Positions 5,067 to 49,881 of a stretch of DNA of 64,000 nucleotides are shown piece after piece (positions within the stretch are counted from its first letter, which is position 1; each line of letters begins with the position of its first letter). A model generated the notes under the pieces. That model was not told the origin of the DNA. It saw only the letters and a program-made list of their open reading frames with translations, and did no database searches. The stretch is from Nymphaea colorata. Taxonomy: Eukaryota > Streptophyta > Magnoliopsida > Nymphaeales > Nymphaeaceae. The stretch spans positions 22,026,040 through 22,090,039 of the forward strand of contig NC_045145.1 of assembly GCF_008831285.2 (NCBI RefSeq). The letters run 5' to 3'. The position numbers and the translations under genes are program-made.

Positions 5067-7700
5067 TTATTTGCCTTTTACATATTCCACCTGAAGGGTT
5101 AAATCATTGATTCCTGCATGGTGCAAGACATTAGCAACCTGTTGCTTTGTAGCTTTGTCACTTTCAGCAGATAGATGAAGATGGAAGGTTCCCACAATCT
5201 CTGTGTTTGTCAAACTCCATACATGAATGTTTTGAATATCACAAACACCCTTTAGCTTCATAACGTCATTAATGGCTTCTTTTACTTCCTTTTCATGAAA
5301 TCTGGGGACTCTTTGAAGCAATATCTCGGCAGAGTTCCTGAGCAGTGGTATCACAGAAGATACTATCATGACTGAAATAAATATTGAACAAGCAGGGTCA
5401 GCGGCTAGCCATCCCTTGTACTTTATGAGAAGAGTTGAAATTACAACTCCTAAGCTCCCCATTGTGTCAGCAAGGACGTGTAAAAATATTCCCTCCATAT
5501 TGTGGTCGATATGATTATGCATCTTGGACCCTTTCTGCAAATTACTGTTCAAATCTCCTGGATGTGAATGCTTATGCTGCAAGGAACAATGGGAGTGTGC
5601 ATCAGGATGCACCATGATGCAATTCTCTGAAGGATTTCCATGGGAGACTTTCAAATTATGCACCCCAACATGGCTCTGGTTATCATGAACATGGGAATGG
5701 GCATGTGCGTGGCCTTTTCCCTGGCTGGAACATGATTTCTCAGTGCAAGTGTCTTCCAGGTTGCTGCTATTTCTGTGGGCCTGCTGATGACTTTGAGTAC
5801 CACTATATAACGAACTTTCAATGTGATGATTATCATGACGATGATGATCATGGTGATGATTATCATGACAATGGTGATCATTATCATGACAATGGTGATG
5901 ACTGGAACTTCTTGTCTCACACATGAATTCTCTTTCCTGATCATGGTCATGATGATGATGGTGATGGTCAACGTCACTGGCGACGTTGCAAATTTTCTCG
6001 TCATGAGGATCATTTCTGGAACCACATGTGCTTTTAGTCACAGACTGGTCATGTCTCCAGTTACTATGGTCATCATGCTTGTGAGAGCAACCATGTTCAT
6101 GTTCATGGGAATGGGAATGATGCCCATGAGAATGTGAGCATGCCCCAGCTCCACCATGAGCATGATGATGCTCTTCATGGAAAAAAATCAAGCCAACCAA
6201 ATTGACCACAAGGCCTCCAATAGACACCGACAACAAACTACCGGTGGAGATCTCCTGGGGATCAAGAATCCTCTCAAATGACTCCACAACAATAAGAGCT
6301 CCAACCAATACAAGGAAAACTGCATTGACATAACCAGAAAGAACTTCAAATCTACCACGCCCAAAATTGAACTGCGAATTTCCAGGCAACCGCGAAATAT
6401 ATGAAGCATAGAGCCCAATGGCTAGAGCAGCACAATCGAACAACATATGACAAGCATCTGAGATAAGGCCCAGGCTATTACTCATGAATCCCACAATAAA
6501 CTCCACAAACATATAAAGAGTATTAATCAAAAGAAACAGAGCAATCTTTCTTGATTTCCTTTCACTCAGAATGTGGCGAATGGGACCCATGACCATCGAA
6601 AATAGAGACTCCGAAGAACCTGATCCCAATTCTGGAGATTTCGACAGTTCGGGACCCAATTCATTAACTGCGACCCAGAGTGCAAAGCTAACTACTACGA
6701 AACCAAACAGAGAAAACTCAGAGAAGTAGAAGAGCTCCAAGACACAAGTACAGCACAAGAGAACCAAAAACTCCCTTTCAGAAATTCTCTGTGAAGGCGA
6801 AGATCCAGCACCCCCTGAACGCTCTTCGCCATACAATTCAGTCAGAATGACACCAAAAAATATTGAACAGAACAAAGGCCAAATCAGTCCTCCGAAACTA
6901 ACGGCATCCGAACCCCAATTCCCCTGCAACCAACTCACAAACGCGAACGGAGAGAGAAAAGCCGAGGCAAACCAGAGGGAATATAACCGGACACCTTTCT
7001 TACCCAGCTGCTTCAGCGATCCCCAATTCGATCGCTCCAAGTACCCCAGATAACCCGAAGCGAAGGGGCAAACAATCCGTAGGATCCCAAAACACTTGAA
7101 TGAATCTGAATACCAATTTATATAACTGGACGAGAAGCAATCGGTTCGATCCCAACCGAAGGCAAGAACAAGCAGAGCGAGAAGAAGAGAGGTGATACCA
7201 GAAACCCTTCGGAAGCGATCCCCATTGGCGACAGCCTTGGCGGCGAGGGAACCAGAGAAGTCCGCGAGGATGGTAGCGGCGGGCCCGGCGACGTGGAGCG
7301 ACTGGAAGCGAAGGAGAAGGACGAGAGAGAGGAGGGCCCCCTTGACGGCGAGGGGGCGGAGGACGGGAAGGGAGAGGGAGGGACGATGCTGCGAAGAGAA
7401 AAGTAGAGAGAGGATGAGGGAGGAGGAAAGGGTAAGGAGGAAGGAGAAGGGGAGGACAGACAGAGTTGGGGAGGAGTTGAGGAAGGGGTGGAGGGTGTAG
7501 AGGGAGAAGGTGGAAAGGAAGGTGGTGATGAAGAGAGGGGTGGTGGTGGCAGTGGCGGCGGCCGGTTGGCTGAAGCTGCGGCGACTGGAAGGCGTCGGCG
7601 TGGGGGTTGGGGTCAGGAGAGGCGGGTACAGCAAGTATGGTCGGGATTGACGGGCCGGGAGGGAGACTTTCAGAGACTTCTGGTGGCGGTGGTGGTTCAT
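5067..7700 (-). CDS. MTP12: MTP12-like zinc transporter (CDF family, ZnT5-type), 877 aa
   Basis: Cation diffusion facilitator exporting Zn2+ from cytosol into Golgi/early secretory lumen. The Arabidopsis MTP12 class works as a heteromer with MTP5. The single uninterrupted reading frame carries a long hydrophobic N-terminal half (residues about 55-345, several membrane spans) typical of the ZnT5/MTP12 branch. The CDF core begins at about 375. The zinc site residues are present: H418xxxD422 in one span and H741xxxD745 in a later one. Between them lies a very long His-rich loop (about 508-735) with clustered HHHHHH and HDH runs. The cytosolic C-terminal domain covers about 790-877. The start at 7700 is the first Met and is conserved in the truncated copy at 18828. 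Compared with all three truncated copies it lacks eight codons in the loop. It is the only full copy here and lies divergent from the MMP array. Confidence 0.93.
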   Translation of the reverse strand: MNHHRHQKSLKVSLPARQSRPYLLYPPLLTPTPTPTPSSRRSFSQPAAATATTTPLFITTFLSTFSLYTLHPFLNSSPTLSVLPFSFLLTLSSSLILSLLFSSQHRPSLSLPVLRPLAVKGALLSLVLLLRFQSLHVAGPAATILADFSGSLAAKAVANGDRFRRVSGITSLLLALLVLAFGWDRTDCFSSSYINWYSDSFKCFGILRIVCPFASGYLGYLERSNWGSLKQLGKKGVRLYSLWFASAFLSPFAFVSWLQGNWGSDAVSFGGLIWPLFCSIFFGVILTELYGEERSGGAGSSPSQRISEREFLVLLCCTCVLELFYFSEFSLFGFVVVSFALWVAVNELGPELSKSPELGSGSSESLFSMVMGPIRHILSERKSRKIALFLLINTLYMFVEFIVGFMSNSLGLISDACHMLFDCAALAIGLYASYISRLPGNSQFNFGRGRFEVLSGYVNAVFLVLVGALIVVESFERILDPQEISTGSLLSVSIGGLVVNLVGLIFFHEEHHHAHGGAGACSHSHGHHSHSHEHEHGCSHKHDDHSNWRHDQSVTKSTCGSRNDPHDEKICNVASDVDHHHHHHDHDQEREFMCETRSSSHHHCHDNDHHCHDNHHHDHHRHDNHHIESSLYSGTQSHQQAHRNSSNLEDTCTEKSCSSQGKGHAHAHSHVHDNQSHVGVHNLKVSHGNPSENCIMVHPDAHSHCSLQHKHSHPGDLNSNLQKGSKMHNHIDHNMEGIFLHVLADTMGSLGVVISTLLIKYKGWLAADPACSIFISVMIVSSVIPLLRNSAEILLQRVPRFHEKEVKEAINDVMKLKGVCDIQNIHVWSLTNTEIVGTFHLHLSAESDKATKQQVANVLHHAGINDLTLQVEYVKGK

Positions 7701-8396
7701 GGTGGTGGCCGTGGACGTGACGGTGGTGTTCTCACTCTCCCTCTACAGTGTCTCTGAGACCGCGGTTGGGTGGTGGTGGTGGTGGAAGCCGGGCTTCGGA
7801 CGCCGGGAAGCAAAAGCAACTCGAAGTCAAGTCAAAAAGAGGGCGCCCCCGCGCCTTCTTTGGGGGTAGGGCCGACAATTCTTCGCACCGCAACGTCAAG
7901 CCGCCAATTACTTTCTGAATTACAAAGCTTTTGATTGTTTCTCTAGAAAAAAAAAAGTGATGGTCAATTGGAATTTATATAGCGCAAAATATGACATTTC
8001 AGAATTTAAAATACCACATGTACGTCGAAAAAAGGAACTAATTCCAACGAGACTGTGCCTATCCCCATAGAAGATATTGGAGCCCATACATCTCCAACCT
8101 TTTCTGTTGATGGATCTTCTTTTGCCTTTGGCATTAGAAGTTGATGCTTGGTGCTGCTGTTGAACTTTATTTTGATGATGATTTCTCCAATCCCACTGGT
8201 AAACCAATCCACTAATCTCAAACTCCGCAGTTTTAATTTGTTCCACAGCTAGTCTTCTTCTTAAACTTTGTCCACATGCTTCTTATTTTCATCATGCTTA
8301 GTAACACCCATAATTTTTTTAGTAGCCGAAGAATATCTAATAGTGTCATTCTTTTCATAGCAAATGGTGGTACACTGCCCCGCACATAGGGCTGTT
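7701..8396 (-). promoter_or_regulatory. MTP12 upstream region
   Basis: 5' flank of MTP12, beginning with GT/GGT-rich DNA next to the start codon. The segment reappears, diverged, after the truncated MTP12 copies at 18829-19244 and 31531-31965, so it travelled with the duplicated module. No clean TATA box was identified. Confidence 0.5.
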
Positions 8397-8841: not shown

Positions 8842-10605
8842 CTAGTCGCACTACTCCCACTTCCTTCTACATGGAAAACGAACGAGGCACTTCACTGAGG
8901 ATGGGAATGTCTCCTTTCTAAAGCTGCGATCGAGCTTGACAAAATTAATGAACATGAATGTCATTGATAACAGTGCATCTACAATACTAAATCTAACAGC
9001 GTGATCCTACTTTTGTTAATAGATACCATAGTGACGGTTGCCTTTGTCAATGCATCATATTTGAATATTGTATATGCTTAGTGTATCCACTTTATTGGAT
9101 CTTCATATATTTAGGTTCAAATTCTGGTTTAAGTATGAACGAAGAAAAGTTTGTATCGTGTCTGAATCCAAATGTACAATCTAAACTCGATCAAGGTATA
9201 CCAAAAATTCGAATCAGATTCCAACTTTAATTTAAACCGAACATGAAAACATGTTAAGAACCGACTTGCCAAATGCAAATGTTATTACATCTATGAGATT
9301 TACTTAAAACTAAATCTCAAGATGAATCTGTAACCGTTCTGGATATTTGTTTAATTCTAAATCCGAATCCAACTGAATGTCATTTCTTTAACTTGATTAA
9401 TATCCAATTTCTTAATAAAATGTTAATTTTTTATATCTGATTTTGTTGAAATACTAGTTCTGTGAAAATTTCATTCAAATCTGACGTATTGACACCCCTA
9501 ATTAAATAGGTCCCAAGAGCAACACAGCCGACCTTGACCTTTCACAAGGCTTGGACATACAACACAATGCACAGACAATTTGTTTGATGGATTATCATGC
9601 AGTTAATATAGTTGCTGGAGTTTGGATGGATATACGGTGTACTATTTTATCAAGCTAACTAGGGTTGGTGATAGACTTTATTGCAGGCATACATTCCAGT
9701 AAAAACAACTATTTTCCTTCATATTTTGAGGAAAGGACATCTGCATCGGCCATTGTAGCCATCACTCTAAACTTGCAAGGGTGAAAAAAAATTGCTGTAA
9801 GGTGAATATCATTGTTGCTATTACAAGTTGGTAGAGCCCAAAAGTTCACCTTGAAGGGCAGAACTTTAAAAAGAAAAATACAATGGTAAAGAGGCACTGA
9901 CATGCAAATAGTCAAATGGCTATGAGACACTAATATGCAAATAGAAGCAACTATTTTTGGGTTTTGTTAAGTATAATAAAGTTTGTTAAATGGCTTGCCT
10001 TGTATTCGGAAGGGTTATAGCTGTACTGGTAAATATCACACCTGCACACGCTCAATGTACGTAGATCCTGATCAAACAACTATCTGAGATAAACTGAAAT
10101 AAAACTATTTAGTTAAGGATAACAATAATCAAATAATTGTTTGATTAGTAAATATGTTACTAATAGATAGTTGTTTAAGCTATTTAAATGATTGATTATT
10201 AAGATATAATCGTACACATCTACCGATGTTTTGCGGTCATTTATTAAAATGAATGGTAAAATGTTTTCCCATGCTTGTGTCACTTCTACCAATGTTTTTC
10301 GGTTGCCGGTAATAGGCGTATCGTTTGTAGTGATGCTTTTAGTTTATTAGTGTCATTAGTTAACTTATGTGGTGCGTTGCGCAAACCAATGTGGTGTGTG
10401 CAATGACACATATATTGTCTGATTTAAGTAAGAAAAGATGCACCATGATTCTTTTAGAGAGACATTTGATTCTATCAACTTTTGAAGCTGCTGAAATCAG
10501 CATGCATATACTTCTGCATGGAGTTACTTTAGATGTGGTTCTATGTAAGAGCCATGTGTTTCTTTGGTGTATTTTCCCCATGATCAAGTTCCTCCAGTGC
10601 CCAAA
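8842..10605. other. Module spacer upstream of MMP-A (duplicated)
   Basis: AT-rich non-coding DNA between the MITE and MMP-A. Long parts reappear upstream of the other MMP copies: 8880-9480 matches 14300-14900 and 19740-21080, and 9530-10560 matches 15480-16400 and 21120-22160. No gene is supported. Near 10530-10556 the MMP-A copy has lost the promoter bases that hold TATATAA in the sister genes. Confidence 0.7.
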
Positions 10606-10707
10606 ATGGTTTCTACATTATCCTTTGTTACAATCCTCATGCTTGATCAAGTTCCTCCAGGTGCCCAAAATGGTTTCTACATTATCCTTTGTTACAATCC
10701 TCATGCT
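10581..10707 (+). repeat. 63/64-bp tandem duplication at the start of MMP-A
   Basis: 10581-10643 and 10644-10707 are near-identical, both running from TGATCAAGTTCCTCCAG through the start codon to CCTCATGCT. Sister MMP genes have one copy, so this is a local duplication unique to MMP-A. Confidence 0.9.
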
Positions 10708-11086
10708 TCTCGTCTAGACCAACTATATGGAGTGGGCTTCTGGTCACAATGGCGACTTCCATTACTAGGCAGGGGCAGAATTCCTTAACCTTCTGGCTAT
10801 GGCAAAGGACAAAGCCATAAAGTGCTCCCCTCCCTGAAAAGATATTTTCAACATTTCGGCTATTTGGACACGGTTGCCGACAGAGGATTCTCTCTTGTTT
10901 TTTATGAAGATCTAGAAGCTGCCGTGAAGAAATACCAAGCGTTCTTCAGCCTGCCTCAATGCTACTGGTATAGTCGACACAGCAACAATGCACCAACTAA
11001 TCCAGCTGAGATGTGGCGTACCAAACATAATCAAAGATCCAGTGCCGGCAAAATTCCACCAGATTAATGTCACCGGCAACTCAAGT
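10606..11086 (+). pseudogene. MMP-A: truncated matrix metalloproteinase pseudogene
   Basis: Opens with the family start (MVSTLSFVTI) and follows the propeptide of the intact copies, including KRYFQHFGYLDTV and LEAAVKKYQAFFSL. It has an early stop (TAG after MLLV), a second stop shared with MMP-B where the intact genes read HYQA, and a frameshift after FFSL. A tandem repeat of its own first 63 bases inserts a further stretch. The match ends at the NVTGNSS region, so the whole catalytic domain is absent. The TATATAA box of the sister genes is deleted. Not functional. Confidence 0.88.
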
Positions 11087-11153
11087 GAAAGAACTTCAAA
11101 CCTACCATGCCCAAAATTGAACTGCGAATTTCCTGGCAACTGCGAATTTCCAG
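11087..11153 (-). repeat. MTP12 shard at the MMP-A breakpoint
   Basis: These 67 bases match the MTP12 segment around 6333-6395, in the MTP12 orientation. The final TGCGAATTTCC repeats a word used just before it. The shard lies exactly between the broken end of MMP-A and the restart of MMP upstream DNA, as filler at a rejoining point. Confidence 0.85.
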
Positions 11154-12099
11154 TATCTTGAGGAAAGGACATTTGCACCAGCCACTACAGCTATCACTCT
11201 GAACTTGTAAGGGTGAAAAAAAAATTGCTGGTAAGGTAAATATCATTGTTGCTCTTACAAGGTGGTAGAGCCAAAGGTTCCCCTTGAAGGGTAGAACTTT
11301 AAAAATAAAAGCACAATGGTAAAGAGGCACCAGCATGAAAATAGTCAAATGGCTATGAGACACTAATACGCAAATAATAGTAACTATTATTAAATTTTGT
11401 TAAGTATAATATAAAGTTTATTAAATGGCTTGCTTTGTATTCAGAAGGGTTATAGCTGTACTGGTAAATATCACACCTTCACACACTCAATGTATGTAGA
11501 TCCTGATCAAACAACTATGTGGGATTAACTGAAATAAAAACTATTAACTAACATTTAGTTAAGGATAACAATGATAAAATAGTTGTTTGATTCGTAAATA
11601 GGTTATTGTTAGATAGTTGTTTAAGTTGTTTCAAACAATTGATTATTAGGATATAGTCATTACACACAGTGTGGATACATTTACCAATGTTTTTCGGCCA
11701 ACAAAAGTTTTTACCGAGCAAACCATCAGTAAAATGTTTTCCCATGCTTGTGTCACTTCTACCAACGGTTTTCGGTTGCCGGTAATAGGCGTATTTTTTA
11801 TTGATGCTCATCATTTACTAGTGTCATTAGTTAACTTATGTGTCGCGTCACGCAAACCAAAGTAGTGTGTGTCATTACACATGTATTGTCTGATTTATGT
11901 AAGAAAAGATGCACCATGATTCTTTTAGGGAGACATTGGATTCTATCAATTTTTGAAGTAGCTGAAATTAGCATGGATATATTTCTTTATGCAGTAACTT
12001 TAGATGCCATTGCTCACCTGGTTCTACATGCCCTCTATATAAGAGCCATGTGTTTCTTTGGTGTATTTCCCCATGATCAAGTTCCTCCACATGCCCAAA
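11154..12099 (+). other. Duplicated upstream region of MMP-B
   Basis: Restarts in the middle of the module spacer (equivalent to about 9720 onward) and runs to the MMP-B start. A TATATAA box lies at 12036-12042, 58 bp before the start codon. No other gene is seen. Confidence 0.75.
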
Positions 12100-13038
12100 A
12101 TGGTTTCTACATTATCCTTTGTTGCAATCCTCATGCTTTTGGTCCAGACCAACTATATGGAGTGGGCTTCTGGTCACAATGGCAACTTCCATTACTAGGC
12201 AGGAGCAGAATTCCTGCAACTTTCTGGCTATGGCAAAGGACAAAGCCATAAAGTGCTCCCCTCCCTGAAAAGATATCTTCAACATTTCGGCTATTTGGAC
12301 ACGGTTGACGACACAGGATTCTCTCTTGTTTTTGATGAAGATCTAGAAGCTGCCGTGCAAAAATACCAAGTGTTCTTCAGCCTCAATGCTACTGGTATAC
12401 TCGACACAGCAACAGTGCACCAACTAATCAAGCCGAGATGTGGCGTACCAGACATAATCAAAGATCCAGCGCGGGCAAAATTCCACTAAATTAATGTCAC
12501 CGGCAACTCAAGTTCATCATTATACAGTCTCAGAAACGAACGTTGGCCACCATCCAACAGGAGACTATTGTATAATATCTCGGTGAACGGGCACATGCCA
12601 TTTCGTATAGCAAATCTGAGGCCTGTCATCCATGAGGCATTTGAAACATGGGCTTTGTTCTCGCCATTTGACTTCACAGAGACTTCGATCGAGAGAATCG
12701 CTCAGTTGCGCATCGGATTCTACAGATGGCAGCACTTAAATTGTCCAATTTCGTTTGATGGACCAGACGGCGTGCTCGCACACGCATTTTATCCGCCATC
12801 TGGGAAGCTTCACTTCAACGCAGATCGTATATGGGCGATGGACCCTGAGAGGTTGATGAACACGAGAGAATCATACGACCTTCAATCGGTCGCCGTTCAT
12901 GAGATCGGCCATCTATTGGGGATGGGTCATAGTACAGTTCCAGAAGCAATCATGTATCCTAGCTTGGATCCTCAAACAAGGAAGGTGGAGCTGCATGGCG
13001 ATGATATTGCAGGAATCAATGCTATGTATCCTAGCTGA
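12100..13038 (+). pseudogene. MMP-B: matrix metalloproteinase pseudogene with two nonsense codons
   Basis: Aligned over its full length with the intact copies. Frame is kept from ATG 12100 to the normal stop, but TAG at 12196-12198 interrupts the propeptide start (HY-stop-AG) and TAA at 12487-12489 interrupts between propeptide and catalytic domain (KFH-stop-IN). The cysteine switch PRCGVPD, the zinc site HEIGHLLGMGH and the following IMYP Met-turn are all intact. The last residues are MYPS rather than MYPRSS. It looks recently dead. The first stop is shared with MMP-A. Confidence 0.9.
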
Positions 13039-13354
13039 TTGATTCTTGGAGTTAATTCTTACAAGGCTATGAATCCTTAGGCATAGTGATTCTTAGGGTT
13101 TTGACTAGGTTATGCATCCTAATCTCACTTGCCACATTTTTGTGACAAATTGTCACCCAATATTTTTGTTAATCAATTTCTATTTTTTGTTGGCTCCTTC
13201 TCTCTCGTTCTCTCTCCCCCACAATTTGAATTGTAACCTATCCTGAGCCCTGAACCCATGATGGTAGAATTAAGGATGTGAATGGATTAGATTCAAATAA
13301 GATATAGCCTTAAACCATATCCGCTTTTTCGGATAAACAGATATTCACCATGTT
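13039..13354 (+). other. MMP-B 3' flank with truncated MITE
   Basis: Shared MMP 3' flank (GATTGATTCTTGGAGTTAA, then TTGCCACATTTTTGTGACAA). It is followed from about 13275 by the left part of a TAGGGATGTGAATGGATT-type MITE, which is cut at 13354 by the MTP12 fragment. The full MITE is present after MMP-E and MMP-H. Confidence 0.75.
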
Positions 13355-14082
13355 GACATTGCAAATTTTCTAGTCATGGTTGTAAGATTTGTGAAGACTA
13401 CAAGGATAATTTCTTGAACCACATGTGCTTTTAGTTAGAGACTGGTCATGTCTCTAAGTCACTATGGTCATCATGCTTGTGAGAGCAGCTATGTTCATGT
13501 TCATGTTCATGGGAAAGAATGTGAACATCACCCAGCTCCACCATGAGCATGATGATGCTCTTCATGGAAAAAAAATCAAGCCAACCAAATTCACCACAAG
13601 GCCTCCAGTAGACACCGGCAACAAACTACCGGTAGAGATCTCCTGGGGATCAAGAATCCTCTCAAATGACTCCACAACAATAAGAGCTCCAACCAATACA
13701 AGGAAAACTGCATTGACATAACCAGAAAGAAATTCAAACCTACCACGCCCAAAATTGAACTGCGAATTTTCAGGCAACCGTGAAATATATGAAGCATAGA
13801 GCCCAATGGCTAGAGCAACACAATCGAACAATATATGACAAGCATTTGAGATAAGGCCTAGGCTATTACTCATGAATCCCACAATAAACTCCACAAACAT
13901 ATAAAGAGTATTAATCAAAAGAAACAAAGGAATCTTCCTTGATTTCCTTTCACTGAGAATGTGTCGAATGGGTCTCATGACCATAAAAAATAGAGACTCC
14001 TCAGAACCTGATCCCAATTCTGGAGATTTCGACCGTTCGGGACCCAATTGATTAATAGCGACCCAGAGACGAAACCAAACAG
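13355..14082 (-). pseudogene. MTP12 fragment 1 (partial CDF core)
   Basis: Matches the MTP12 region from the start of the His-rich loop back to about residue 341. The frame is open over 13562-14107 through the CDF core, including the HILFD form of HxxxD and the FGRGRFE block. The loop part is frameshifted. The upstream end has a small deletion and then joins directly to the middle of a MITE, so the N-terminal half and promoter are gone. The C-terminal half is also absent. Orientation matches MTP12, opposite to the MMP genes. Confidence 0.9.
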
Positions 14083-14286: not shown

Positions 14287-15005
14287 CTACATGGAAATTG
14301 AACAAGGCACTTCAGTGAGGATGAGAATGTCTACTTTCTAAAGCTGCGATCGGGCTTGACAAAATTAATGAACATGAATGTCACTAATAGTAGTGCATCT
14401 ACAATATTAAATCTAACAGCGTGATCCTAATTTGTTAATAGACATCATAATGACGGTTTCTGATGTCAATGCAACATATTCGAATCATGTATATGCTTTA
14501 TTGTCTCCACTTTATTTGATGTTTATATATTTAGGTTCAAATTTTGGTTTAAGTATGAACGAAGAAGAGTGTGTATCGTATCTGAATCCAAATTAACAAT
14601 CTAAACTCGATCAAAGGATACCAAGCATTCGAATCAGATTCCAACACTAATTTAAACCGAACCTGAGCAGACATGTTAAGAACCGACTTGCCGAATGCAA
14701 TTGTTTTACATCTATGAGATTTACTTAAAACTAAATCTCAAGATGAATCTGTGTCCGATTTGGATATCGTTTTAATTCTAAAATCCGAATCCAATAGGAT
14801 GTCATTTCTTCAATTTGAGTCATATCCAATTTCTTAATCAAATATATATGATTTTGTTGAAATACTAGTTCCGTCGAATTTTTTATTCAAATCTGATACA
14901 TCAAACACCTAATTAAATAGGGCACAACAATTACACCACTAATCATGACATCACACGGCTTGGAGTTACAGAACAATGCACAGCCAATTTGCTTGATGGA
15001 TTATT
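14287..15005. other. Module spacer, copy
   Basis: Non-coding AT-rich spacer matching 8850-9590, ending at GGATTATT, the target site of the next MITE. No gene seen. Confidence 0.7.
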
Positions 15006-15466: not shown

Positions 15467-16466
15467 GGATTATTGTGCAGTTAATAGAGTTGGTGAGGTT
15501 TCGATGAACATACGGTGTACTATTTTATCAAGCTAGCAAGGGTTGGTGATAGACGTTATTGCAGGCATACATTCTAGTAAAAACAATAATTTTAGTTCAT
15601 ATTTTGAGGAAATGCAACTGCCACTGTAGCTATCACTCTAAACTTGTAAGGTGAAAAAAAAAAATTCTGGTAAGGCAAATATCATTGTTTCTATTACAAG
15701 TTGGTAGAGAAAAAAAGGTTTCTTGAAAGGCAGAACTTTAAAAAAAAAAACCGCACCTATTTTTGGGTTTTGTTAAGTATAATAAAGTTTATTAAATGGC
15801 TTGCTTTGTATTCTGAAGGGTTATAGCTGTACTGGTAAATATCACACCTTCACATACTCAAATAATGTAGATCCTGATCAAACAACTATCTGGGATAAAC
15901 TGAAATAAAACTATTAACTAACATTTAGTTAAGGATAACAATGATCAAATAGTTATTTGATTGGTAAATAGGTTATTGTTAGATAGTTGTTTAAGTTGTT
16001 CAAGCAATTGCTTATTAGGGTACAGTCATTATATTAGAGTGTGTGGACACATTTACCGATGTTTTTTTGGCCGACAAAAGTTTTTACCCAGCAAAACCAT
16101 CGGTAAAATGTTTTCTGATGCTTGTGTCACTTCTACCAACGTCCCAACAATAGAAGTATTTTTTTGTAGTATGCTCATCATTTATTAGTGTCATTAGTTA
16201 ACTTATGTGGTGCGTTGCGCAAACCAAAGTGGTGTGTGCCATGACACATATATTGTCTGATTTAAGTAAGAAAAGATGCACCATGATTCTTTTAGAGAGG
16301 CATTTGATTCTATCAATTTTTGAAGCTGCTGAAATTTGCATGCATATATTTCTGCATGGAGTAACTTTAGATGCCATTGCTCACCTGGTCCTACATGCCC
16401 TCTATATAAGAGCCATGTGTTTCTTGGCTGTATTTCCCCATGGTCAAGTTCCTCCTGATGCCCAAA
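15467..16466 (+). other. Upstream region of MMP-C
   Basis: Duplicated spacer and promoter DNA. A TATATAA box lies at 16403-16409, 58 bp before the MMP-C start. No separate gene is supported. Confidence 0.7.
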
Positions 16467-17411
16467 ATGGTTTCGACATTATACTTTGTTGAAATCCTCA
16501 TGCTTCTGGTCCAGACCAACTGTATGGAGTGGGCTTCTGGTCACAATGGCAACTTCCATCACCAGGCAGGGGTAGAATTCCTAAAACTTTCTCGCTATGG
16601 AAAAGGACAAAGCCATGAACTGCTCCCCTCCCTGAAAAGATATCTTCAACATTTCGGCTATTTGGACACGGTTGCCGACACATAATTCTCTCGTGTTTTT
16701 GATGAAGATCTAGAAGTTGCCGTGCAAAAATACCAAGTGTTCTTCAGCCTCAATGCTACTGGTATACTCGACACAACAACTGTGCACCAACTAATCCAGC
16801 CGAGACGTGGCGTAGCAGACATAATCAAAGATCCTGCGCTGGCAAAATTTCACCGGATTAATGTCACCGGCAACTCAAGTTCATCACTACACAGTCTCAG
16901 AAATGGACGTTGGCCACCATCAAGTAGGAGACTATTGTATAATATCATGGAGAACGAGCACATTCCATTTCCTATAGCAGATCTGAGGCCTGTCTTCCGT
17001 GAGGCATTTGAAACATGGGCTTCGCCATCGCCATTCGACTTCACACAGACTTCGATCGAGAGAATCGCTCAGTTGCACATCGGATTCTACAAAGGGCAGG
17101 ACTTAGATTGTCCAATTCCATTTGATGATCTTGGTGACTTTCTGGCACACGCATTTTATCCGCCATCTGGGACGCTTCACATCAACGCAGATAAAATATG
17201 GGCGATCGACCCTAAGATATTGAAGAACACGGAAGAATCGTACGACCTTCAATCGGTCGCCGTTCATGAGATCGGCCATCTACTGGGGTTGGATCATAGT
17301 AGAATTCCAGAAGCAATCATGTATCCTACCTTGGATTCTCAAGCAAGGAAGGTGGAGCTGCATGGCGATGATATTGCAAGAATCAATTTTATGTATCCTC
17401 GGTCCAGCTGA
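16467..17411 (+). pseudogene. MMP-C: matrix metalloproteinase pseudogene lacking the cysteine switch
   Basis: Full-length match with one nonsense codon, TAA at 16683-16685 (ADT-stop-FS in the propeptide). Frame is otherwise kept to the normal MYPRSS end. The latency motif PRCGVPD reads PRRGVAD, so the zinc-binding cysteine of the propeptide is lost. The zinc site HEIGHLLGLDH and Met-turn IMYP are intact. The open part from 16722 (229 codons) covers the late propeptide and whole catalytic domain. Probably dead. If transcribed and started internally it would encode an enzyme without the usual self-inhibition. Confidence 0.88.
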
Positions 17412-17681
17412 TTGATTCTTGGAGTTAATTGTTACAAGGCCATGAGTCCTTAGGCATAGTGATTCTTAGGGTTTTGACTAGGTTATGTATCCTATTCTCA
17501 CTTGCCACATTTTTGTCACCTTTGTGACAAATTGTCACCCTACATTTTTGTTAATCAATTTCTGTTTTCTGTTGGCTCTCTCTCTCTCACAATTTGAACT
17601 GTAATGTGAATGGATTAGATCCAAATCAGATATACCCTTAAACCATATCTGCTTTTTCGGATAATCAGATATTCACCATGT
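17412..17681 (+). other. MMP-C 3' flank with truncated MITE
   Basis: Same order as after MMP-B: common 3' flank, then the left part of the MITE, then the same junction into MTP12 sequence near GTTGACGTTGCAAATTTTC. Confidence 0.75.
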
Positions 17682-18828: not shown

Positions 18829-19244
18829 GGTGGTGGCCGCGGATGTGACGCTGGTGTTCTCCCTCTCCCTCTATAGTGTATCTGCGACCGTGGTTGGGTG
18901 GTGGTGGTGGAAGGCGGGCTTCGGTCGCCGGGAAGCAAAAGCGACTCGAAGTCAGGTCGAACAGAGGGAGCCTCCTTTCCTGCTTTAGGGGGAAGGCACG
19001 TCAAGCCGCGAATTTGTTTCTGAAATACAAATCTTTTGATTGTTTCTGTAGAAAAATAAAATAGAGCCATGGTTGAATCCAGTCATCTCAAACTCCACGG
19101 TTTTAATTTCTTCCATAGCTAGTTTTCTTCTTAAACTTTGTCCACATGCTTGTTATTTTCATCATGCTTAGTAACGCCCAGAATTTTTTAGTATCTAATA
19201 GCATCATTTTTTTCATAGGAAATGGTGCTGAATTGCCCTGCACA
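18829..19244 (-). other. Copy of the MTP12 upstream region
   Basis: Matches 7701-8396, with the GGTGGTGG-rich start and the downstream AT-rich part. It could still drive the truncated MTP12 frame, but that is not shown by the sequence. Confidence 0.6.
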
Positions 19245-34154: not shown

Positions 34155-34367
34155 TTGATTCTTGGAGTTAATTCTTACAAGGCTATGGATCCCTAGGCAT
34201 AGTGATTCTTAGGGTTTTGACTAGGTTATGTATCCTATTCTCACTTGCCACATTTTTGTCACCTTTGGGACAAATTGTTACCCTATATTTTTGTTAATCA
34301 ATTTCCATTTTTTGTTGGCTCTCTCTCTCCCAACCCATCCTGAGCCCTGAACCCATGATGGTAGAAT
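34155..34367 (+). other. MMP-E 3' flank
   Basis: Common MMP 3' flank (GATTGATTCTTGGAGTTAA and following), ending where the complete MITE starts. Confidence 0.7.
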
Positions 34368-35106: not shown

Positions 35107-35174
<68 letters not shown>

Positions 35175-37942: not shown

Positions 37943-38197
37943 TTGATTCTCAAGGTTTTGACAAGGCTCTGTATCCTCAGGGTTTAGTGATTCTTAGAGT
38001 TCAATTTGACAGGGTTATGTTTGCAATTAGGATCAAGTCTCAAGATCTTCTCCCTCGCGACATCTGTTACCGAGAACGTCAAGGTTGCGTGCACAGGAGT
38101 TTGCATGCAACAAAATGTGCACTCAACAAAATAAGAAGGAAAGTTGGGGGCTCTTTAGAATTTTTTTTATAAAAACATCTAAATTTTTAAATTTTTC

Positions 38198-38242
<45 letters not shown>

Positions 38243-38431
38243 TTCACTGGTTCTATTTTATCATTACACATCCTCATGCATGCAAGGCGTGTGCAACTAA
38301 CCAGTTTGGTTGTTACCTTGGTGATAATTTGTCGATTACATTTTGTAATCAAATAATTCTATTTTGCTGTTTCTCTCTCTCTCTCTCTCTCTCAATTTGA
38401 ATTAGTAGTTGTTGTCGGCAAGCCTTTTGTT

Positions 38432-38497: not shown

Positions 38498-39159
38498 CTC
38501 GGCAAATTTGTCCAGCATTAGATTTGGACAACTGTCGTGCTTCTGAAGTTGATTGTTTGTAAGGAGAAAGAAAAGCAGAGTCCATAGAGATGATAATATT
38601 ATCTGATTTGGATCAGAATTTAACTGAACCATTCCGATAAAATAGGATACGAATAAAAAGGCAATTAATACCCAAGTAAGAAATCAGATAGGATTTGGAT
38701 TTAAGAAATGTTATTAGACTGGATTTGGATTTGGATTTACATATACACAACTGTCTGATCAAATTCGAATTCAAATTCATAACAATATTGGTTTTAAATA
38801 ATTGTCCAATACTCATAATCGGCCAGGGCCAGGATAAGAAATTGAGAGAGACAAAAAGGGCTATTAAAAAAATTGAAAGAGAGAGAGAAAAAGAAGAAAA
38901 GGTTAACGTCGTTCAGAGAAATCTCCTACTTCCATGATGTACCTCACCACTCTACTATCACCATGATGAGATTTCCACTATGAAGGTACCACATTACAGT
39001 CATGCCAAATTGAGGAGATGTTTCTCCTTTATTTTATTAAGGAAGTTACATTTGATTTTATCTTGAAGACATTCTTCCTGCGCAAAATCGGTGACATGCT
39101 TGGAGTTGCCAGATTTGCTCCATGCTTGAGTAGGCATGGATTTGGTTTATAGGCAGCTA
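37943..39159. other. Non-coding region between MMP-F and MMP-G
   Basis: Contains (TA)n at about 38200-38241 and 38436-38497 and a CT run at about 38371-38393. AT-rich DNA with GGATTTGGATTTGG words (about 38590-38830) resembles the hAT-MITE interiors. No gene was recognised. Confidence 0.6.
38200..38497. repeat. Two (TA)n microsatellites and a CT tract
   Basis: TA repeats at 38200-38241 and 38436-38497, with CTCTCTCT at 38371-38393 between them. Confidence 0.95.
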
Positions 39160-39495
39160 TTGCTCGCCGGCAACTCAACTTCAATGCTCTACAAGCTGAC
39201 AGATAACCGCTGGCCACCATCTCGCCGTCCAAGTTCTCAGAGTTGCCACAAAGTGGTTGTCACGGTAGCCGATTTGCATTTCACATTCTTCACAGGAAAG
39301 CACCCAATTTGTAAAAGGCCATTTGATGGTCGTGGGGGAACGCTGGCACACTCAACCTATCCGCCGGTTGGCAAGAGTCACTATAATGCAGATGAAATAT
39401 GGGTGATCGACCCTAAGAAATTGGCAGAAATGGAGGGATCGAGAGACCTGCAATCTCTCGCCCTTCATGAGATCGGCCATCTTCTGGGGTTGGGT
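39160..39495 (+). pseudogene. MMP-G: catalytic-domain fragment cut by Copia-2
   Basis: Begins at the GNSTSMLYKL region, equivalent to GNSSSSLY of the intact genes. The middle of the catalytic domain is missing: after RWPPSRRPS it picks up near TVADLHFTF. FDGRGGTLAHSTYPP and NADEIWVIDPKKL follow. It ends exactly after HEIGHLLGLG, where retroelement sequence begins. Signal peptide, propeptide, third zinc His and Met-turn are absent. The frame stays open into the retroelement to 39606. Confidence 0.88.
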
Positions 39496-40842
39496 CTCTT
39501 AAGGAAAGTGACGACTCTACCAAAGAAAGGCTCAACAGTAAAAGAATTGAAGATGGAAAGAAGCTCGGTGGTAATGGTAAAAGAATTGAAGTTGGAAGCA
39601 GGATGAAGAAATAGAAATCAAAAAATGATCTCTAGTGGATGTAAGTCAAATTGACTGGACCACGTAAACCTGTCTTTGCTCTGCTCTTTCTTCTCTCTTT
39701 TATGGTATTAGAGCCAACTTCAGGTCTTGTTTTAGCCTGTATTTCAGCGATCAAGACTGATAACCATGGTGGATTCTCCAGCACCAACATCAGAAAATTC
39801 AGGATCTTCAATCAATACAAGTTCTGGTATGATTTTCACTTCCCCACCATGCAATACCCCATCAATTTACAACATTTCTTAAGCATCAAGCTTAATGCAG
39901 AAAACTACTAGATATGGTAATCTCAGTTTGTTTCTATCTTGATATCTTGTGATTTAATGGGGTTTTTTAATGGCTCTAATGCCACCCATATATGTGGATG
40001 GAAGTGGGACTGTAGTCAACCAAGACTATGTTCTGGCTTAGATAGGACTACCTGTTGTTAAGCTGGATCAAATGATCCTTATCAAAAAGCATTCACACTC
40101 AGATCGTAGAGCTGAAATCCTCTGCTGAAGTATGGAAATATCTCAAGTAGTCATATGCTGCTCATTTTAGGTCTAGAATTATGCAACTGAAGTCTGAGGT
40201 ATGAGACCTCAAGAAAAGGATTTTAAGCATGGATGCATATGTTCATAAGGCCAAAATGATAGCACATCAATTAGCTACAACATCAAAACCAGTTGATGAA
40301 GATGATTTGGTCCTCTATATTCTTAAAGGTTTACCTTCAAAGTATGCTGCCTTCAAAACTAGCATATAGACTAGAAAGGAGGCTATAACATTAAATGAGT
40401 AGCATGGCCTCCTCTTTATGCAAGAGGCAAACCAATAGGAGAATGAAGTCCAAGTTGAGTCTTTGACTCCATCTGCTAACATTGTGACAAAGATCAATTA
40501 TGGTATGCATCAAAACTATAAAGGAAGAGGGAGAAATAATTATCAAAACATGAACAAAAATTTTCAAGAAAAAGAAAGACTGACTTGTCAAATATATGAG
40601 AAAGTTGGGCATGTGGCTAAAAACTCCTATTCATCTTCTCAAAGAAAAATGACCTAACTTGGGATCGAGTCTTCAAGCCTATCACTCTTCAACTGGAAAC
40701 TCTTACAACCAACAAGTAGGAGACGATAATTGGCATCTGGATTCAGGCACGACACACCACATCACCAATGATATTAACAATTTATCTATTCATACTGAAT
40801 ATTTGAAGGGATAATAATATTTGTTTTGAATTTCATCCTGAC

Positions 40843-41562
40843 TTGTGTTTTATTACAGACCGAGTAATAGAGATGGTGCTTCGCCAAGAAACAACTAGTG
40901 GAGGTCTATACAAAGTAAAGCTTGACAACAAGAATAAAGAAGCATTGAGTAGCAATAAGGAGCCTATTGATCTATGGCACATACGTCTTGGACATCTAGC
41001 AGTTTCATTAGTTAAAAGAATTTTAGTTAATTCTGATTTGCTTTATGATAGCATGTTTTTTGTGTCTTTGTGTGAGCCTTGTCTTAAATTGCAGTCAAAA
41101 TTGCCTTTTAAAACCTCTACATATAAAGCGTCTATTCTTCTTGAGATTGTTTATTTAGACATTTGGGGTCCATCTCCAATTACAAGTTCAAATAATTTTA
41201 GATACTATGTGATTTTTGTGGATGGTATCTCTAGATACATATGGCTATCCTTGTTGAAAAATAAATCTGATGTTTCCATCATATTTAAAGCTTTTAAATC
41301 TCTGATTGAAAATCTTACACTTTACAAAATTAAATATCTTCATACAGATGCAGACAGTGAATTTGTAGGATTAAAATGCGTTTTGATTGAGCATGGCATC
41401 GATCACAGGATCACATGTCCACACGCTATTGAACAAAATGGTATGTCTGAAAGACGTCACCGACACAAAGTAGAAACTAGTCTTGCACTTACGGCTGAAG
41501 CTAATGTTCCAAAAAATTTCTGGTCATATGCTTTTTCTAGTTCAGTATACCTTATTAACTGA
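40843..41562 (+). pseudogene. Copia-2 integrase region
   Basis: 239 open codons: GAG-pre-integrase LWHIRLGHL, integrase core YLDIWGP and TDADSEF, then EQNGMSERRHRHKVET and FWSYAFSSSVYLIN. It stops before the integrase C-terminal part. Confidence 0.85.
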
Positions 41563-43619: not shown

Positions 43620-45909
43620 ACAGGAATCCACCAGCGAATATTGGTATCCCGACTCGGGAGCAACCAATCATATTGTCAACAACAATGAGATGATGCACAA
43701 CAAGACGACATATGATGGATCGAACAATATTAGGATTGGTAATGGTTCAGTCTCCCTATTAAGCATATAGGGAATTTATTAGTTAATATGCAGAGACTGT
43801 TTCATATTAACAATGCCCTGCATGTGCCCAAAATGGCTCATAATCTTTTATCAGTGGGAATATTTACATCTTGAAATGATTGCATTTTTCAATTCTCACC
43901 ACATGATTTTGTTATTAAGGATCGACAGACGGGCAATGTTCTACTTCAAGGACCAAAGATGCGTAACAGGCTCTATCCCATCAAGGCGACAAGATCAAAC
44001 ATTGATTTGTTTTCAACTAAGAGCAGCGTTTAGTTGCTGGTTTCGAGCAGACGTCAATAAAATTTCAACATCATTTGAACTATGGCATCGGCGTCTTGGT
44101 CATGCCTGCAAGAAGATCGTCGGTTTTTTAATATCCAGTAGATTCATATCAATAAATTCTCCTATTCCAAAAGGAGTATGTCAGTCTTGTTATTTGGGAA
44201 AGACACATAAACAACCTTTTCAACTTCTGATTTCTCACGACCTTTTGAAATGCTTCATATGGATGTATGAGGACCTGCCCTGATCACCTCTTGAGAGGGA
44301 TTCAGATCTTTTCTACTCATCGTTGACAATTATTCTAGATTTTCATGGCTGTTTCCTCTTAAAGCTATGTCTAAAGTTGTATTATGTTTAAAGAATTTTA
44401 AGATCTTGGATGAAAAGCAGTTAAATGTACATATATGCTTCGTTCATTCTGACAATGGCAAGGAATTCATGAACTCTGACTTAACTCAATTTTGTGATGA
44501 ACATGGGATTTTGCATCAATTTTCTTGCCCTTATACTCCAGAACAAAATGGTATTCTTGAATGAAAAAATCATCATGTCATCGAAGCAAGATTAAGTATG
44601 CTTTATGATGATGGACTATTCTATAATTTAACGGTTGATGCTTTTCACACTACCATTTATATCATCAATCACTTACCAACTTTGAAGTTGTAGCGCAAAT
44701 TGCCCTTTTATATGCTGTTTCACAAGGATCCAAAATATGCACACTTGAGGGTTTTTGGAACCACATACTATCCACTACTGACGCCTATGAATGATTCCAA
44801 ATTTCAGCCCCAAGACTACAACATGTATTTTCTTGGGTTATGCTAGTCATCATAAGGGATATTTATGCTATGACAAGAGACATCATCGTATTCTAATATC
44901 TCAGCATGTTGTCTTTGACGAAACTGATACCAATGGGTCTGATTGTCATGAAGATTTCTCAGATGAACTAGTTTCTCGTTGGCTGCCAAATACGACCTAT
45001 GTCTCTCCCTCTAGTCTGGTCAATCCAATGTGTGATCCAACACAGTCCACGACAGCCTCCACTTACACTGTGTTACCACCTCTTCCTATGGTTGAAACCT
45101 CTGCCATGGTTTCACCTTGTGAGCACCTAAGTCTGTCACTCAATGAGGCAAAAAATCCTACATCAGTGCTGCCATCTATTCTGGGTGCACCAAGTACGGC
45201 TATTGATGCTGCCACCACCAGTCTTGCTCCTCCCATTTGATCTCATTCAATGCTGACCTGTTCCATGACTAGTTCATCCAAACCAAAAGCTTTTTCAGCC
45301 ATCGCAGCACAAAAGGAACCACAGACTTTTAAAGAAGCCATTCAATCTTCATGTTGGCATAATGCTACGCAGAATGAGTTCTCAGCGTTGCAGAAAAACA
45401 AAACCTGGCATCTTGTACCCCCACAGCCAGATTTTCATGTTATCAGTTCCAACCGGGTTTACAAAATTAAATGTCACCCTGGTTCCATCACACGACATAA
45501 AGATTGCCTTGTAGCTCGGGGCTTTCTTCAAGCAGCGAGCATTGACTATCAAGAAACTTTTAGTCCCACTGCAAAGCCCACCACTATTAGAGTGTCACTC
45601 TCTTTAGCTGCCCATTTTGGTTAGTCTTTACGACAACTTGATTTTGACAATGTGTTTCTTAATGGGTATCCTTTTGAAGATGTCTATATGGCTCAACCTG
45701 AGGGATTTCAAGATACCACCTTTCCTCATTATGTTTGCAAACTAGATAACGCACTCTATGGGCTCAAGCAGACTCCACGCGCATGGTATCATTGCTTGAG
45801 TTGCTTTCTTAGTGATCTTGGCTTCGTGGTTTCTCAATCTGATGCATCCTTTTTATTTACTCCTGCGATGGTCATCAGCTTTATCTTCTTGTTTACGTTG
45901 ATGATTTGA
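43620..45909 (+). pseudogene. Copia-3 protease, integrase and reverse transcriptase
   Basis: Protease YWYPDSGATNHIVNNN at about 43640. GAG-pre-integrase LWHRRLGHAC at about 44080. Integrase HSDNGKEFMNS and TPEQNGILE, followed by a stop, at about 44450-44564. Reverse transcriptase starts at about 45250 (FKEAIQSSCWHNATQNEFSA), with [11 protein letters not shown] at about 45760. A stop interrupts after AAHFG at 45624, and the active-site stretch is shifted near 45890. Confidence 0.85.
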
Positions 45910-46642: not shown

Positions 46643-48315
46643 CTTATCTTCGTCCATATACCAAACATAAACTTGACCATAGATCAGTAAGAAGTGTCTT
46701 TCTGGGGTATGCCCCACAACAAAAAGGCTACTATTGTTTGAATTTGAAAAACAACAAAATTTTTGTGACACGACATGCTGTTTTCAATGGAGGAGAATTT
46801 TCATTCAAAACAAAAAAACATAGAGAAAATTACAAGCCAGAAAGTTAAGGTGGGCAGCCTATTCTCTTTGCCCTTCTTGCTTCAAAACTCACTACCAGAG
46901 TCCTTAGAGCCACATCTTGTGACGCATCATGCTGATCCAAATATGGAGCAACGCCTTCATTTCGACGAACATGATGATAGTCAACAACTGGGTGGTCAAA
47001 GTTACAACCAAAGTCCTAGTTCAAATAGTGAACCAAGACACAACCAAGACGATGTATCTCATGCACCAAGTCCCACTTGTAGAGATGATGTTCAAGTGGA
47101 ATGTAGAGCTGATCAAATTGAATATGAAATACCTGTTCCTCCTAGGACTCATACAATACTCAGTCGTTAACAACTAGGAATAGCCAAACCAAACCCAAAG
47201 CTTCAAGGTTTTCAATCATATTCTTCTACCAAATACCCTTTAGCTTTAACATCTATCTTGACTGAGGAAAGTGAACCATCAAGCCACATTGAAGCCTTAC
47301 AATGTGAAAAGTGGAAAGAAGCTATGCAAAATGAATACGACACACTTGTCCAAAGTCAAACGTGAAAACTTGTTTCTCCCGAGGATGCCAAGTATGTTAT
47401 TGGGTGTAAATGGGTTTTCAAGATAAAAAGGAAGGAAGATGACTTTATAGAAAGGTACAAAGCTAAGCTAGGTTAGCCAAGGGATATAGTCAAAAGGAAG
47501 AAATAGACTGCATCGAGACTTTTATCCCTGTCATCAAACCCACAACTATTAGGACTGTTTTGACCATTGCTCTTTAAAACAAATGAAAAATTAGGCAACT
47601 TGACGTACAAATGCATTCCTTCATGGAACTCTTATTGAAGAAGTTTTCATGAATCAACTGCCTGGTTTTGAAAATGGTCGTTTTCCAAAACATGTATGCA
47701 AATTACAAAAGACTTTGTATGGTCTAAAACAAGCTCCAAGAGCTTCGTTTGCTAGATTGAGTACATTTCTTGACAAAATGGGAATCCAAGAAGCTCGTTC
47801 GGAGACATCTCTCTTCATTTTTGAAAAAGAAAATACCATTGCAAATGTTCTTGTATATGTTGATGACATCATTGTTACAGAAAATTCAGAAATTTATATT
47901 CAAAAGCTTATTTTCTCATTTAGCTCTGAATTTGCCATCAAAGACTTGGAAGATTCACACTGTTTTTTGGGCATCGAAGCTAAACACATCACTCAAGGGT
48001 TGATCCTTTTACAACAAAAATACATTGGAGATTTATTGAAACAAACAAATATGCCCATGTCAACACCTACGGCTACAAGTCCTATCTTAACTATTTCATC
48101 TGGAACAAAATTCAAATGACCATTCTTTGCCTAGAAGTACTATCAGAGCACTACAATATGCAACCATGACATGTCCTAACAACGCTTTCACTGTAAATAA
48201 AGTGTGCCAATTCGAGCATTCTCCAACCGATCTCCATTGGGCAGCTTTCAAGCACATACTCAGATACCTGAAGTTCACCATAAATTATGGCTGACTTCTT
48301 AAGAGATCATCCACT
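46643..48315 (+). pseudogene. Copia-2 integrase end, reverse transcriptase and partial RNase H
   Basis: Resumes after Copia-3 with YLRPYTKHKLDHRSVRSVFL, the integrase C-terminal block. Reverse transcriptase runs from about 47380 (YVIGCKWVFKIKRKEDDF) with stops. The open part 47649-48119 has LYGLKQAPRA and YVDDIIVTEN (the YVDD active site). RNase H is cut after ILRYLKFTINYG. Confidence 0.85.
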
Positions 48316-48939
48316 ATGAATATTATGGTGTATAGTGTACGTAAATGAGCAAACATCTATATGAGATAAACTGAAATAAAACTAGTAACTAACATTTAGT
48401 TAACGAGAACAATGATCAAATAGTTGTTTGATTAGTAAATAGGTTATTGCTAGATAGTTGTTTAACTTGTTCAAACGATTGATTATTAGGATATACTCAT
48501 TACATAGAGTGTGTGCACAAATCTACCGATGTTTTTCTGCCGCCAAAAATTTTTACCGTGCAAACCATGTAAAATGTTTTCCCTTGCTTGTGTCACTTCT
48601 ACCAACATTTTTCGGATGCCGGTACTAGGCGTATTTTTTGTAGTGATGCTCATCATTTATTAGTGTCATCAGTTAACTTCTGTAGTGCGTTGAAAAAACC
48701 AAAGTGGTGTGCGCCATGACACATATATTGTCTAATTTAAGTAAGAAAAGATGCACCATGATTCTTTTGGAGAGGCATTTGATTCTTAATTTTTGAAGTA
48801 GCTGAAATTAGCATGGATATATTTCTGCATGGAGTAACTTTAGATGCCGTTGCTCACCTGGTTCTACATGCACTCTATATAAGAGCAATGTGTTTCTTTG
48901 CTGCACTTCCCCATGATCAAGTTCCTCGAGATGCCCAAA
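48316..48939 (+). promoter_or_regulatory. Upstream and promoter region of MMP-H
   Basis: After the Copia-2 break the MMP upstream segment resumes (GAGATAAACTGAAATAAAAC and onward, equivalent to about 15890-16460). TATATAA at 48876-48882, in CACTCTATATAAGAGC, is the likely core promoter. Confidence 0.75.
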
Positions 48940-49881
48940 ATGGTTTCTACATTATCCTTTGCTGCAATCCTCATGATTCTGGTCCAGACCAACTGTACGG
49001 AGTGGGCTTCTGGTCACATTGGCAACTTCCATTACCAGGCAGGGGCAGATTACCTGCAACTTTCTGGCTATGGCAAAGGACAAAGCCATGAAGTGCTCCC
49101 TTCCCTAAAAAGATATCTTCAACATTTCGGCTATTTGGACACGGTTGCCGACATAGGATTCTCTCATGTTTTTGATAAAGATCTAGAAGCTGCCGTGAAG
49201 AAATACCAAGCGTTCTTCAGCCTCAACGCTACTGGCATACTTGACACAGCAACAGTGCACCAACTAATCCAGCCGAGATGTGGTGTACCAGACATAATCA
49301 AAGATCCAGCGCCGGCAAAATTCCACCGGATTAATGTCACCGGCAACTCAAGTTCATCACTATACGGTCTCACAAACAGCTGTTGGCCACCATCAAGCAG
49401 GAGACTATTGTATAATATCTCGCTGAACGAGCACATGCCATTTCCTATAGCAGATCTAAGGCCCGTCTTCCGTGAGGCATTCAAAACATGGGCTTCATTC
49501 TCGCCATTCGAGTTCACAGCTTCGACCGCGAGAATCGCTCAGTTGCACATCGGATTCTACCGGGGGCAGCACTTAAATTGTCCAGATCCGTTTGATGGTG
49601 TTGGCAACTTGCTTGCACACGCATTTTATCCTCCATCTGGCGTGCTTCACATCAACGCAGATTGTGTATGGGCGATCGACCCTGAGATCTTGAGGAACAC
49701 GGAAGAATCGTACGACGTTCAATCAGTCGCCGTTCATGAGATCGGCCATCTACTGGGGTTGGGTCATAGTACAGTTCCAGAAGCAATCATGTATCCTACG
49801 TTGGATTCTCAAACAAGGAAGGTGGAGCTGCATGGCGATGATATTGCAGGAATTAATGCTATGTATCCTCGGTCTAGCTGA
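48940..49881 (+). CDS. MMP-H: plant matrix metalloproteinase, intact, 313 aa
   Basis: Family M10A secreted zinc endopeptidase. Signal peptide MVSTLSFAAILMILVQTNC, propeptide with cysteine switch PRCGVPD at 112-118, catalytic HEIGHLLGLGH at 266-276, then IMYPTLD (Met-turn), ending MYPRSS without a hydrophobic tail. Single exon. In-frame Met codons lie upstream at 48898, 48913 and 48931. The first falls too close to the TATA box at 48876, and 48940 is the start shared with the other copies. Differences from MMP-D include DIGFSHVFDK, a Cys after TNS (NSCWPP) and DCVW near the catalytic domain end. It is closest in layout to MMP-E, since both have the complete MITE and the same downstream segment. 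Confidence 0.93.
   Translation: MVSTLSFAAILMILVQTNCTEWASGHIGNFHYQAGADYLQLSGYGKGQSHEVLPSLKRYLQHFGYLDTVADIGFSHVFDKDLEAAVKKYQAFFSLNATGILDTATVHQLIQPRCGVPDIIKDPAPAKFHRINVTGNSSSSLYGLTNSCWPPSSRRLLYNISLNEHMPFPIADLRPVFREAFKTWASFSPFEFTASTARIAQLHIGFYRGQHLNCPDPFDGVGNLLAHAFYPPSGVLHINADCVWAIDPEILRNTEESYDVQSVAVHEIGHLLGLGHSTVPEAIMYPTLDSQTRKVELHGDDIAGINAMYPRSS

Follow-up and report, generated by a model that had tools for sequence, protein, structure and literature searches.

The 64,000-nucleotide stretch of Nymphaea colorata DNA considered here (the window, C8:22026040-22090039 of the 408-Mb assembly) carries one whole gene for the transporter MTP12, a series of MMP (Matrixin) protease genes, and debris of both. 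We put a probability of about 0.87 on the reading that a ~120-kb tandem MMP array has its left end here, and that an MMP unit dragging a broken MTP12 end was duplicated in it. Copies were counted by self-comparison of the window and by tblastn with the 313-aa MMP8 and 877-aa MTP12 proteins. The DNA examined comprises 154 kb, the window with 10 kb to its left and 80 kb to its right on the same chromosome, and "window-equivalent" coordinates extend the same numbering beyond the window. The features on which the argument turns are listed below.

5067-7700, - strand: MTP12 (M0), the sole whole copy; coding sequence 7700-5070 plus stop, one open frame, 877 aa
7957-9945, no strand given: spacer of unit 1, with relatives upstream of MMP2-MMP5 and of the 74.8- and 79.3-kb MMPs
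10056-11086, + strand: MMP1, truncated at ~codon 138 of 313 so that just its 5' part is left, with stops and frameshifts
11087-11146, - strand: MTP12 relict, 60 bp, 93% to M0 6337-6396, between MMP1 and MMP2
11154-13347, + strand: unit 2, with partial spacer, MMP2 (12100-13038), and 3' flank to junction J2
13348-14080, - strand: MTP12 fragment MA, starting at junction J2; M0 5982 to ~6680
15745-17675, + strand: MMP3, frame 16467-17411, Cys switch PRRGVAD; 3' flank to junction J3
17676-19061, - strand: MTP12 fragment MB, starting at junction J3; start-codon region kept, 507-bp internal deletion
21542-23438, + strand: MMP4, open frame 22226-23158, 310 aa, mosaic, PFDG-loop deletion; flank to junction J4
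23439-24603, - strand: MTP12 fragment MC, first part, starting at junction J4
31344-31785, - strand: remainder of MTP12 fragment MC (N-terminal and 5' part), forming one copy with 23439-24603
32693-35196, + strand: MMP5, open frame 33201-34154, 317 aa; 3' flank crosses junction point 34438
36420-38403, + strand: MMP6, degenerate, ~67-75% identity to unit MMPs
39148-39496, + strand: MMP7, fragment
48336-50994, + strand: MMP8, open frame 48940-49881, 313 aa; uninterrupted 3' flank, no adjoining MTP12

One junction is common to the MTP12 fragments

At all three readable junctions, alignment of the 3' flanks shows that the flank of an MMP meets MTP12 at one base, M0 5982. The flank ends at 13347 after MMP2, at 17675 after MMP3, and at 23438 after MMP4, and an identical 7-bp filler is present in all three. 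M0 5982 corresponds to codon 573 of 877 and therefore lies inside the coding region, with the last 304 codons beyond the break. The tblastn matches of MA, MB, and MC end at residue 573, those of MA and MC likewise in the genome-wide search. The 912 bp of coding DNA past the breakpoint occur once in the 154 kb, in M0, and within that DNA none of the four extra MTP12 copies was found to contain codons 574-877, so that the fragments are without the HVLAD motif (residue 741) and the C-terminal domain. Beyond residue 573 we observed only weak protein matches of the His-rich loop (26-35%) at 23.45-23.65 kb; genome-wide, no match past this residue exceeds 32% identity except M0 itself, among the matches listed. 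The join is absent from MMP5 and MMP8, whose 3' flanks run on past the junction point. MMP5, MMP8, and the 74.8-kb copy have similar flanks from the first base past that point, and alignments of MMP8 to the 74.8- and 79.3-kb copies cross it. The simplest reading is that the extra MTP12 copies were truncated when they were copied.

MTP12-derived copies number five, of which four are debris. An earlier note on this DNA had counted four MTP12-derived pieces; two of these are a single copy split by a long terminal repeat (LTR) element, and the candidate of two separate pieces at 23.4 and 31.3 kb was rejected, yet the debris copies still come to four with the 60-bp relict. The relict lies between MMP1 and MMP2, indicating that an MTP12 fragment once occupied that interval too and ruling out a direct MMP1-MMP2 join without MTP12. 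Cation_efflux scores above the Pfam cut-off in M0 and in two of the three fragment frames; the frame at 17887-18870 reaches 25.3 versus 26.6 bits.

The locus had been described in the earlier note as the duplication of a two-gene module. Tandem duplication did extend over parts of both genes, but not over the whole pair, as seen from the shared break and the absence of codons 574-877. Had whole MTP12-MMP pairs been duplicated and the extra MTP12 genes decayed separately, one would see both genes repeated in one fixed orientation and separated by the spacer, as is the case, and the fragments do bear private later damage. Separate losses, however, lead one to expect differing fragment ends, whereas the three readable fragments break off at one base and carry an identical filler, C-terminal MTP12 DNA is in no fragment, and two MMPs farther right have the spacer and no MTP12. 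We consider such a history improbable and reject it on the shared breakpoint. What survives of the module view is a whole founder that was trimmed once ahead of amplification.

Eight MMP copies lie in the window and about twelve beyond it

Self-comparison and tblastn both place eight MMP-derived copies in the window, all on the + strand (10.06-11.09, 11.15-13.35, 15.75-17.68, 21.54-23.44, 32.69-34.44, 36.42-38.03, 39.15-39.50, and 48.34-50.18 kb), with MTP12-derived DNA on the - strand throughout, opposite to the MMPs. The eight copies in fixed orientation, the one whole MTP12 (the 877-aa frame), and the three whole MMPs of the earlier note are thus borne out, the open MMP frames in the window being MMP4 (22226), MMP5 (33201), and MMP8 (48940). 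Peptidase_M10 is matched in six of six MMP frames tested. MMP2 contains two in-frame nonsense codons and MMP3 one, MMP1 and MMP2 have a nonsense codon in common, and MMP6 and MMP7 are broken as judged by tblastn.

The earlier note placed the end of the array at 49881, but the series runs on to ~129.9 kb. MMP-derived copies number ~20 over 10.1-129.9 kb (the pieces at 87.3-87.8 and 92.9-93.4 kb being counted as a single divided copy), ~12 of them to the right of the window's eight, so that just the left part of a ~120-kb MMP array falls within the window. The 408-Mb assembly has at least 25 listed Matrixin matches. No trace of MTP12 was found outside 5.0-31.8 kb in the 154 kb. The spacer recurs without MTP12 at 73.2-74.7 and 77.1-78.7 kb, upstream of the 74.8-kb MMP and of the 79.3-kb MMP, whose frame is open. 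With spacer and native flank but no MTP12, these two MMPs indicate that the MMP repeat is independent of MTP12. Some spacer-MMP-flank repeats never had the MTP12 join on their right, and none of those has MTP12 on its left. Three open genes of canonical type lie near the right end.

117879-129875, window-equivalent (117.9, 124.5, and 128.9 kb): three canonical MMP genes, open, H-G-D and DLESV intact, no C-terminal tail

An assembly artefact, with alleles or repeats mis-joined, was named in the earlier note as a finding that would overturn its reading. The 154 kb contain 0 Ns, the MMP series goes on along the same 25-Mb contig, and the units stand ~5-22% apart in self-comparison, with private indels and an LTR element flanked by a target-site duplication (TSD), features hardly to be expected of mis-joined alleles. 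Mis-assembly is thus very unlikely.

Spacer DNA is found again upstream of MMP1-MMP5, only in part at MMP2 and MMP5. A short repeat resembling a miniature inverted-repeat transposable element (MITE) has one position and orientation in units 1, 3, and 4 and is inverted in unit 5. The claim that the same spacer and MITE order repeats consequently stands for the spacer, with its two partial copies, and fails for the MITE of unit 5.

9151-9292, 14574-14713, 20011-20885, and 32551-32694: MITE-like short repeat, the third split by an insertion, the last inverted
24604-31343, + strand: LTR retrotransposon in MC; LTRs 24604-24764 and 31147-31343, TSD GAGGG, Pol_BBD open reading frame (ORF) 26020-26709

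M0 and MB both carry the uninterrupted site of the LTR insertion. The LTR pair differs at 9 of 158 aligned sites (Jukes-Cantor distance 0.059), which is less than the distances between MTP12 fragments (Kimura two-parameter 0.083-0.103), suggesting that the element was probably inserted later than the MTP12 fragment duplication.

Exchange between units and a proposed history

The earlier note had proposed a tree of each segment as a check, and the trees give no branching order shared by MTP12 pieces and MMPs. The MTP12 fragments form a near-star, with informative sites 0:2:2 of 576, and the spacer and MMP trees conflict. In the spacer tree units 1 and 4 group together (12 sites, support 0.987), and units 1, 3, and 4 form a group that excludes the 74.8- and 79.3-kb copies (support 0.892). 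DNA upstream of the MMPs pairs MMP3 with MMP4 (bootstrap 99), the catalytic part pairs MMP4 with MMP5 (bootstrap 100), and the MMP 5' half and the 3' flank yield no resolved grouping. Within MMP4, 10 of 12 sites upstream support MMP3+4 and 14 of 16 in the catalytic part support MMP4+5 (Fisher 3e-6; 4e-4 if a run of six bases is treated as one site), and the PFDG-loop deletion is common to MMP4 and MMP5. By these sites MMP4 reads as a mosaic. Since branching orders conflict across segments, we take the units to have exchanged sequence, and we read the tree conflict as exchange among tandem units rather than as independent origins.

We propose that MTP12 was the left-hand neighbor of the MMP array. 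A single illegitimate join of the non-homologous type, with its 7-bp filler, would have connected an MMP 3' flank to MTP12 codon 573, producing a direct repeat of ~5.9 kb that would comprise the truncated MTP12 5' part, spacer, and MMP. Unequal crossing-over between the repeats would then have generated five units, so that at one end M0, as the outermost MTP12, stayed whole and at the other MMP5, as the last unit, kept its native right flank. Exchange among MMPs (the MMP4 mosaic), nonsense mutations, the MMP1-MMP2 deletions, and the retrotransposon insertion would have come later. MTP12 would be left as one whole gene, which, judging from its family, may serve Golgi zinc import with MTP5. Direct repeats, one common junction, and whole outer flanks at both ends are all present, and the mechanism of illegitimate join, unequal crossing-over, and exchange is an ordinary, standard one.

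Several observations weigh against this history. A whole MTP12 that was copied and then trimmed once before amplification would give the same junction, and the expected fourth junction, between MMP1 and MMP2, is deleted and unreadable. In the MMP trees MMP2 is joined by the 74.8- and 79.3-kb copies and MMP1 by MMP8 (support 0.85-0.90), while upstream DNA of the 79.3-kb copy places nowhere specific among MMP1-4. Because the MMP trees fail to set the MTP12-linked units apart, it is the junction and the spacer that support the order of events, with the join coming late.

A mobile element could instead have taken up the 5' part of MTP12 and inserted it beside several MMPs. Copia-type ORFs lie nearby, and a separate fragment of ~280 bp, ~94% identical to M0, on C10 indicates that MTP12 pieces can turn up elsewhere. 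The array fragments, on the other hand, are collinear with M0, spacer, and MMP and share a single junction and orientation, and no element end was noticed at the junction in the 3'-flank alignment, although no dedicated search was made. Capture by a transposon is accordingly a highly improbable source of the fragments. The C10 fragment, at C10:6344374-6344652, is not linked to the array.

The array MMPs and their constraint

MMP4, MMP5, and MMP8 match Pfam Peptidase_M10 at 1.6e-34 to 2.5e-40, and all three have HEIGHLLGLGH, the Met-turn IMY, and the Cys switch PRCGVPD, which in the broken MMP3 reads PRRGVAD. The H-x-D motif of the structural-zinc site, which pairs with that of human MMP-1 in alignment, is H-L-N in MMP8 and H-H-A in MMP5; in MMP4 H-L-D is retained, but part of the PFDG loop is missing. 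Many, but not all, plant MMPs have a C-terminal glycosylphosphatidylinositol (GPI) or transmembrane (TM) segment. None was found in MMP4, MMP5, or MMP8, which end 3 residues past MYP and whose best 19-residue hydropathy within the last 80 residues is 0.59-0.77. The open frames look like proteases of the secreted type, without a C-terminal anchor.

Comparison of 14 MMPs of this genome sets the array lineage apart as a clade (support 1.000), separate from the three canonical MMPs at the right end and four elsewhere. In all seven array-lineage MMPs DLESV is replaced by D[LV]QSV and H-G-D is absent, with H-x-D kept by MMP4 alone, whereas the other seven keep both the Glu of DLESV and H-G-D. Soybean flower MMPs with an altered catalytic Glu are still classed as MMPs (PMC4263021), and by this precedent the lost H-x-D lowers the certainty of activity, not of homology.

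The changes unique to MMP8 are 12 nonsynonymous to 12 synonymous (p = 0.0175 versus neutral), and MMP2 (22:8) and MMP3 (24:9) appear unconstrained. From these counts MMP8 and, less clearly, MMP5 look to be under constraint, and MMP8 is the likeliest of the array MMPs to be working. Other results tell against constraint or soften it. MMP5 is borderline (16:12, p = 0.055), one further change counting as a stop in the consensus codon even though MMP5 has an open frame; MMP4 (19:6) fits neutrality. Pooled MMP8 and MMP5 differ from MMP1-3 at p = 0.021, which becomes 0.081 with MMP4 added, and all of these tests are small (9-39 changes per copy) with p values uncorrected for multiple tests.

The whole MTP12 gene

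M0 matches Pfam Cation_efflux at 2e-43, with human ZnT7 as its best PDB match (6.8e-65, aligned in two stretches), and in a genome-wide protein search of the 408-Mb assembly no other full-length match is listed. Both halves of the cation diffusion facilitator (CDF) domain are present, with HxxxD motifs HMLFD at 418 and HVLAD at 741 around a His-rich loop; these mark TM2 and TM5. The name MTP12, rather than that of another Zn-CDF, is our tentative assignment from length. In the four-way MTP12 alignment 7 of the 63 unique changes fall in M0 (p = 0.0085), and so few fit M0 alone being constrained. The nonsynonymous-to-synonymous ratio of its own changes, 6:5, is not significant (p = 0.19) and does not favor that view. 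At ~6003-6010, near the breakpoint, M0 does not have 24 bp that are present in the three readable fragments, reflecting either a loss in M0 or a gain in the founder.

It is conceivable, at long odds, that the truncated copies act on the whole gene through antisense RNA or small interfering RNAs (siRNAs) that tune MTP12. In three units the MMP points at an MTP12 fragment that starts ~265-310 bp past the MMP stop codon, and 1319 of the 2631 bases in the M0 coding region fall within perfect 21-mers that also occur in the fragments. Read-through from an MMP could thus yield antisense MTP12 RNA and, possibly, siRNAs.

Relation to known systems

Partial gene duplication, as set out in PMC3449122, leaves a truncated copy whose homology to its parent ends at a breakpoint inside the ORF. 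The locus described here resembles that class in the break inside the ORF and in the likely unequal crossing-over between neighbors; it differs from the class in that the truncated copy travels as a passenger and was multiplied along with the units of a protease array. Like other plant MMPs (M10A), for example the tomato Sl-MMPs (PMC4465618), the array MMPs have an intronless open frame, a hydrophobic N terminus, a prodomain PRCGxxD, HExGHxxGxxH, and the conserved Met. They depart from the family in that they have no hydrophobic C-terminal tail and that DLESV and the structural-zinc site are altered. According to PMC9141485, which cites Fujiwara 2015, plant MTP12 is a Zn-CDF that acts in the Golgi together with MTP5. 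M0 resembles plant MTP12 in its long one-frame CDF, its hydrophobic segments before the CDF part, and its His-rich loop, and no difference was noted in it, whereas the fragments have lost HVLAD and the C-terminal domain. No MTP12-MMP array was found among the literature matches listed, in which coverage of subscription journals is thin.

Repeated gene debris can arise at the edge of an array with no whole gene having been duplicated and then lost, and counts of duplicated-then-lost genes should therefore check breakpoints first. The locus also offers a series, from canonical MMPs on the right to diverged ones on the left, in which departure from the structural-zinc site could be traced.

Neighboring features

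One further gene lies near the left edge of the window.

329-963, - strand: first exons of an aminoaldehyde dehydrogenase of the ALDH10 type

No Pfam match was found for its frame at 760-963. The frame at 329-595 matches plant aminoaldehyde dehydrogenase structures at 1.9e-18, with Pfam Aldedh slightly under the cut-off. Copia-type ORF pieces in or to the right of the array lie at 26020-26709, 40807-41559, 43783-44280, 47604-48116, 53801-57035, and 60782-62212.

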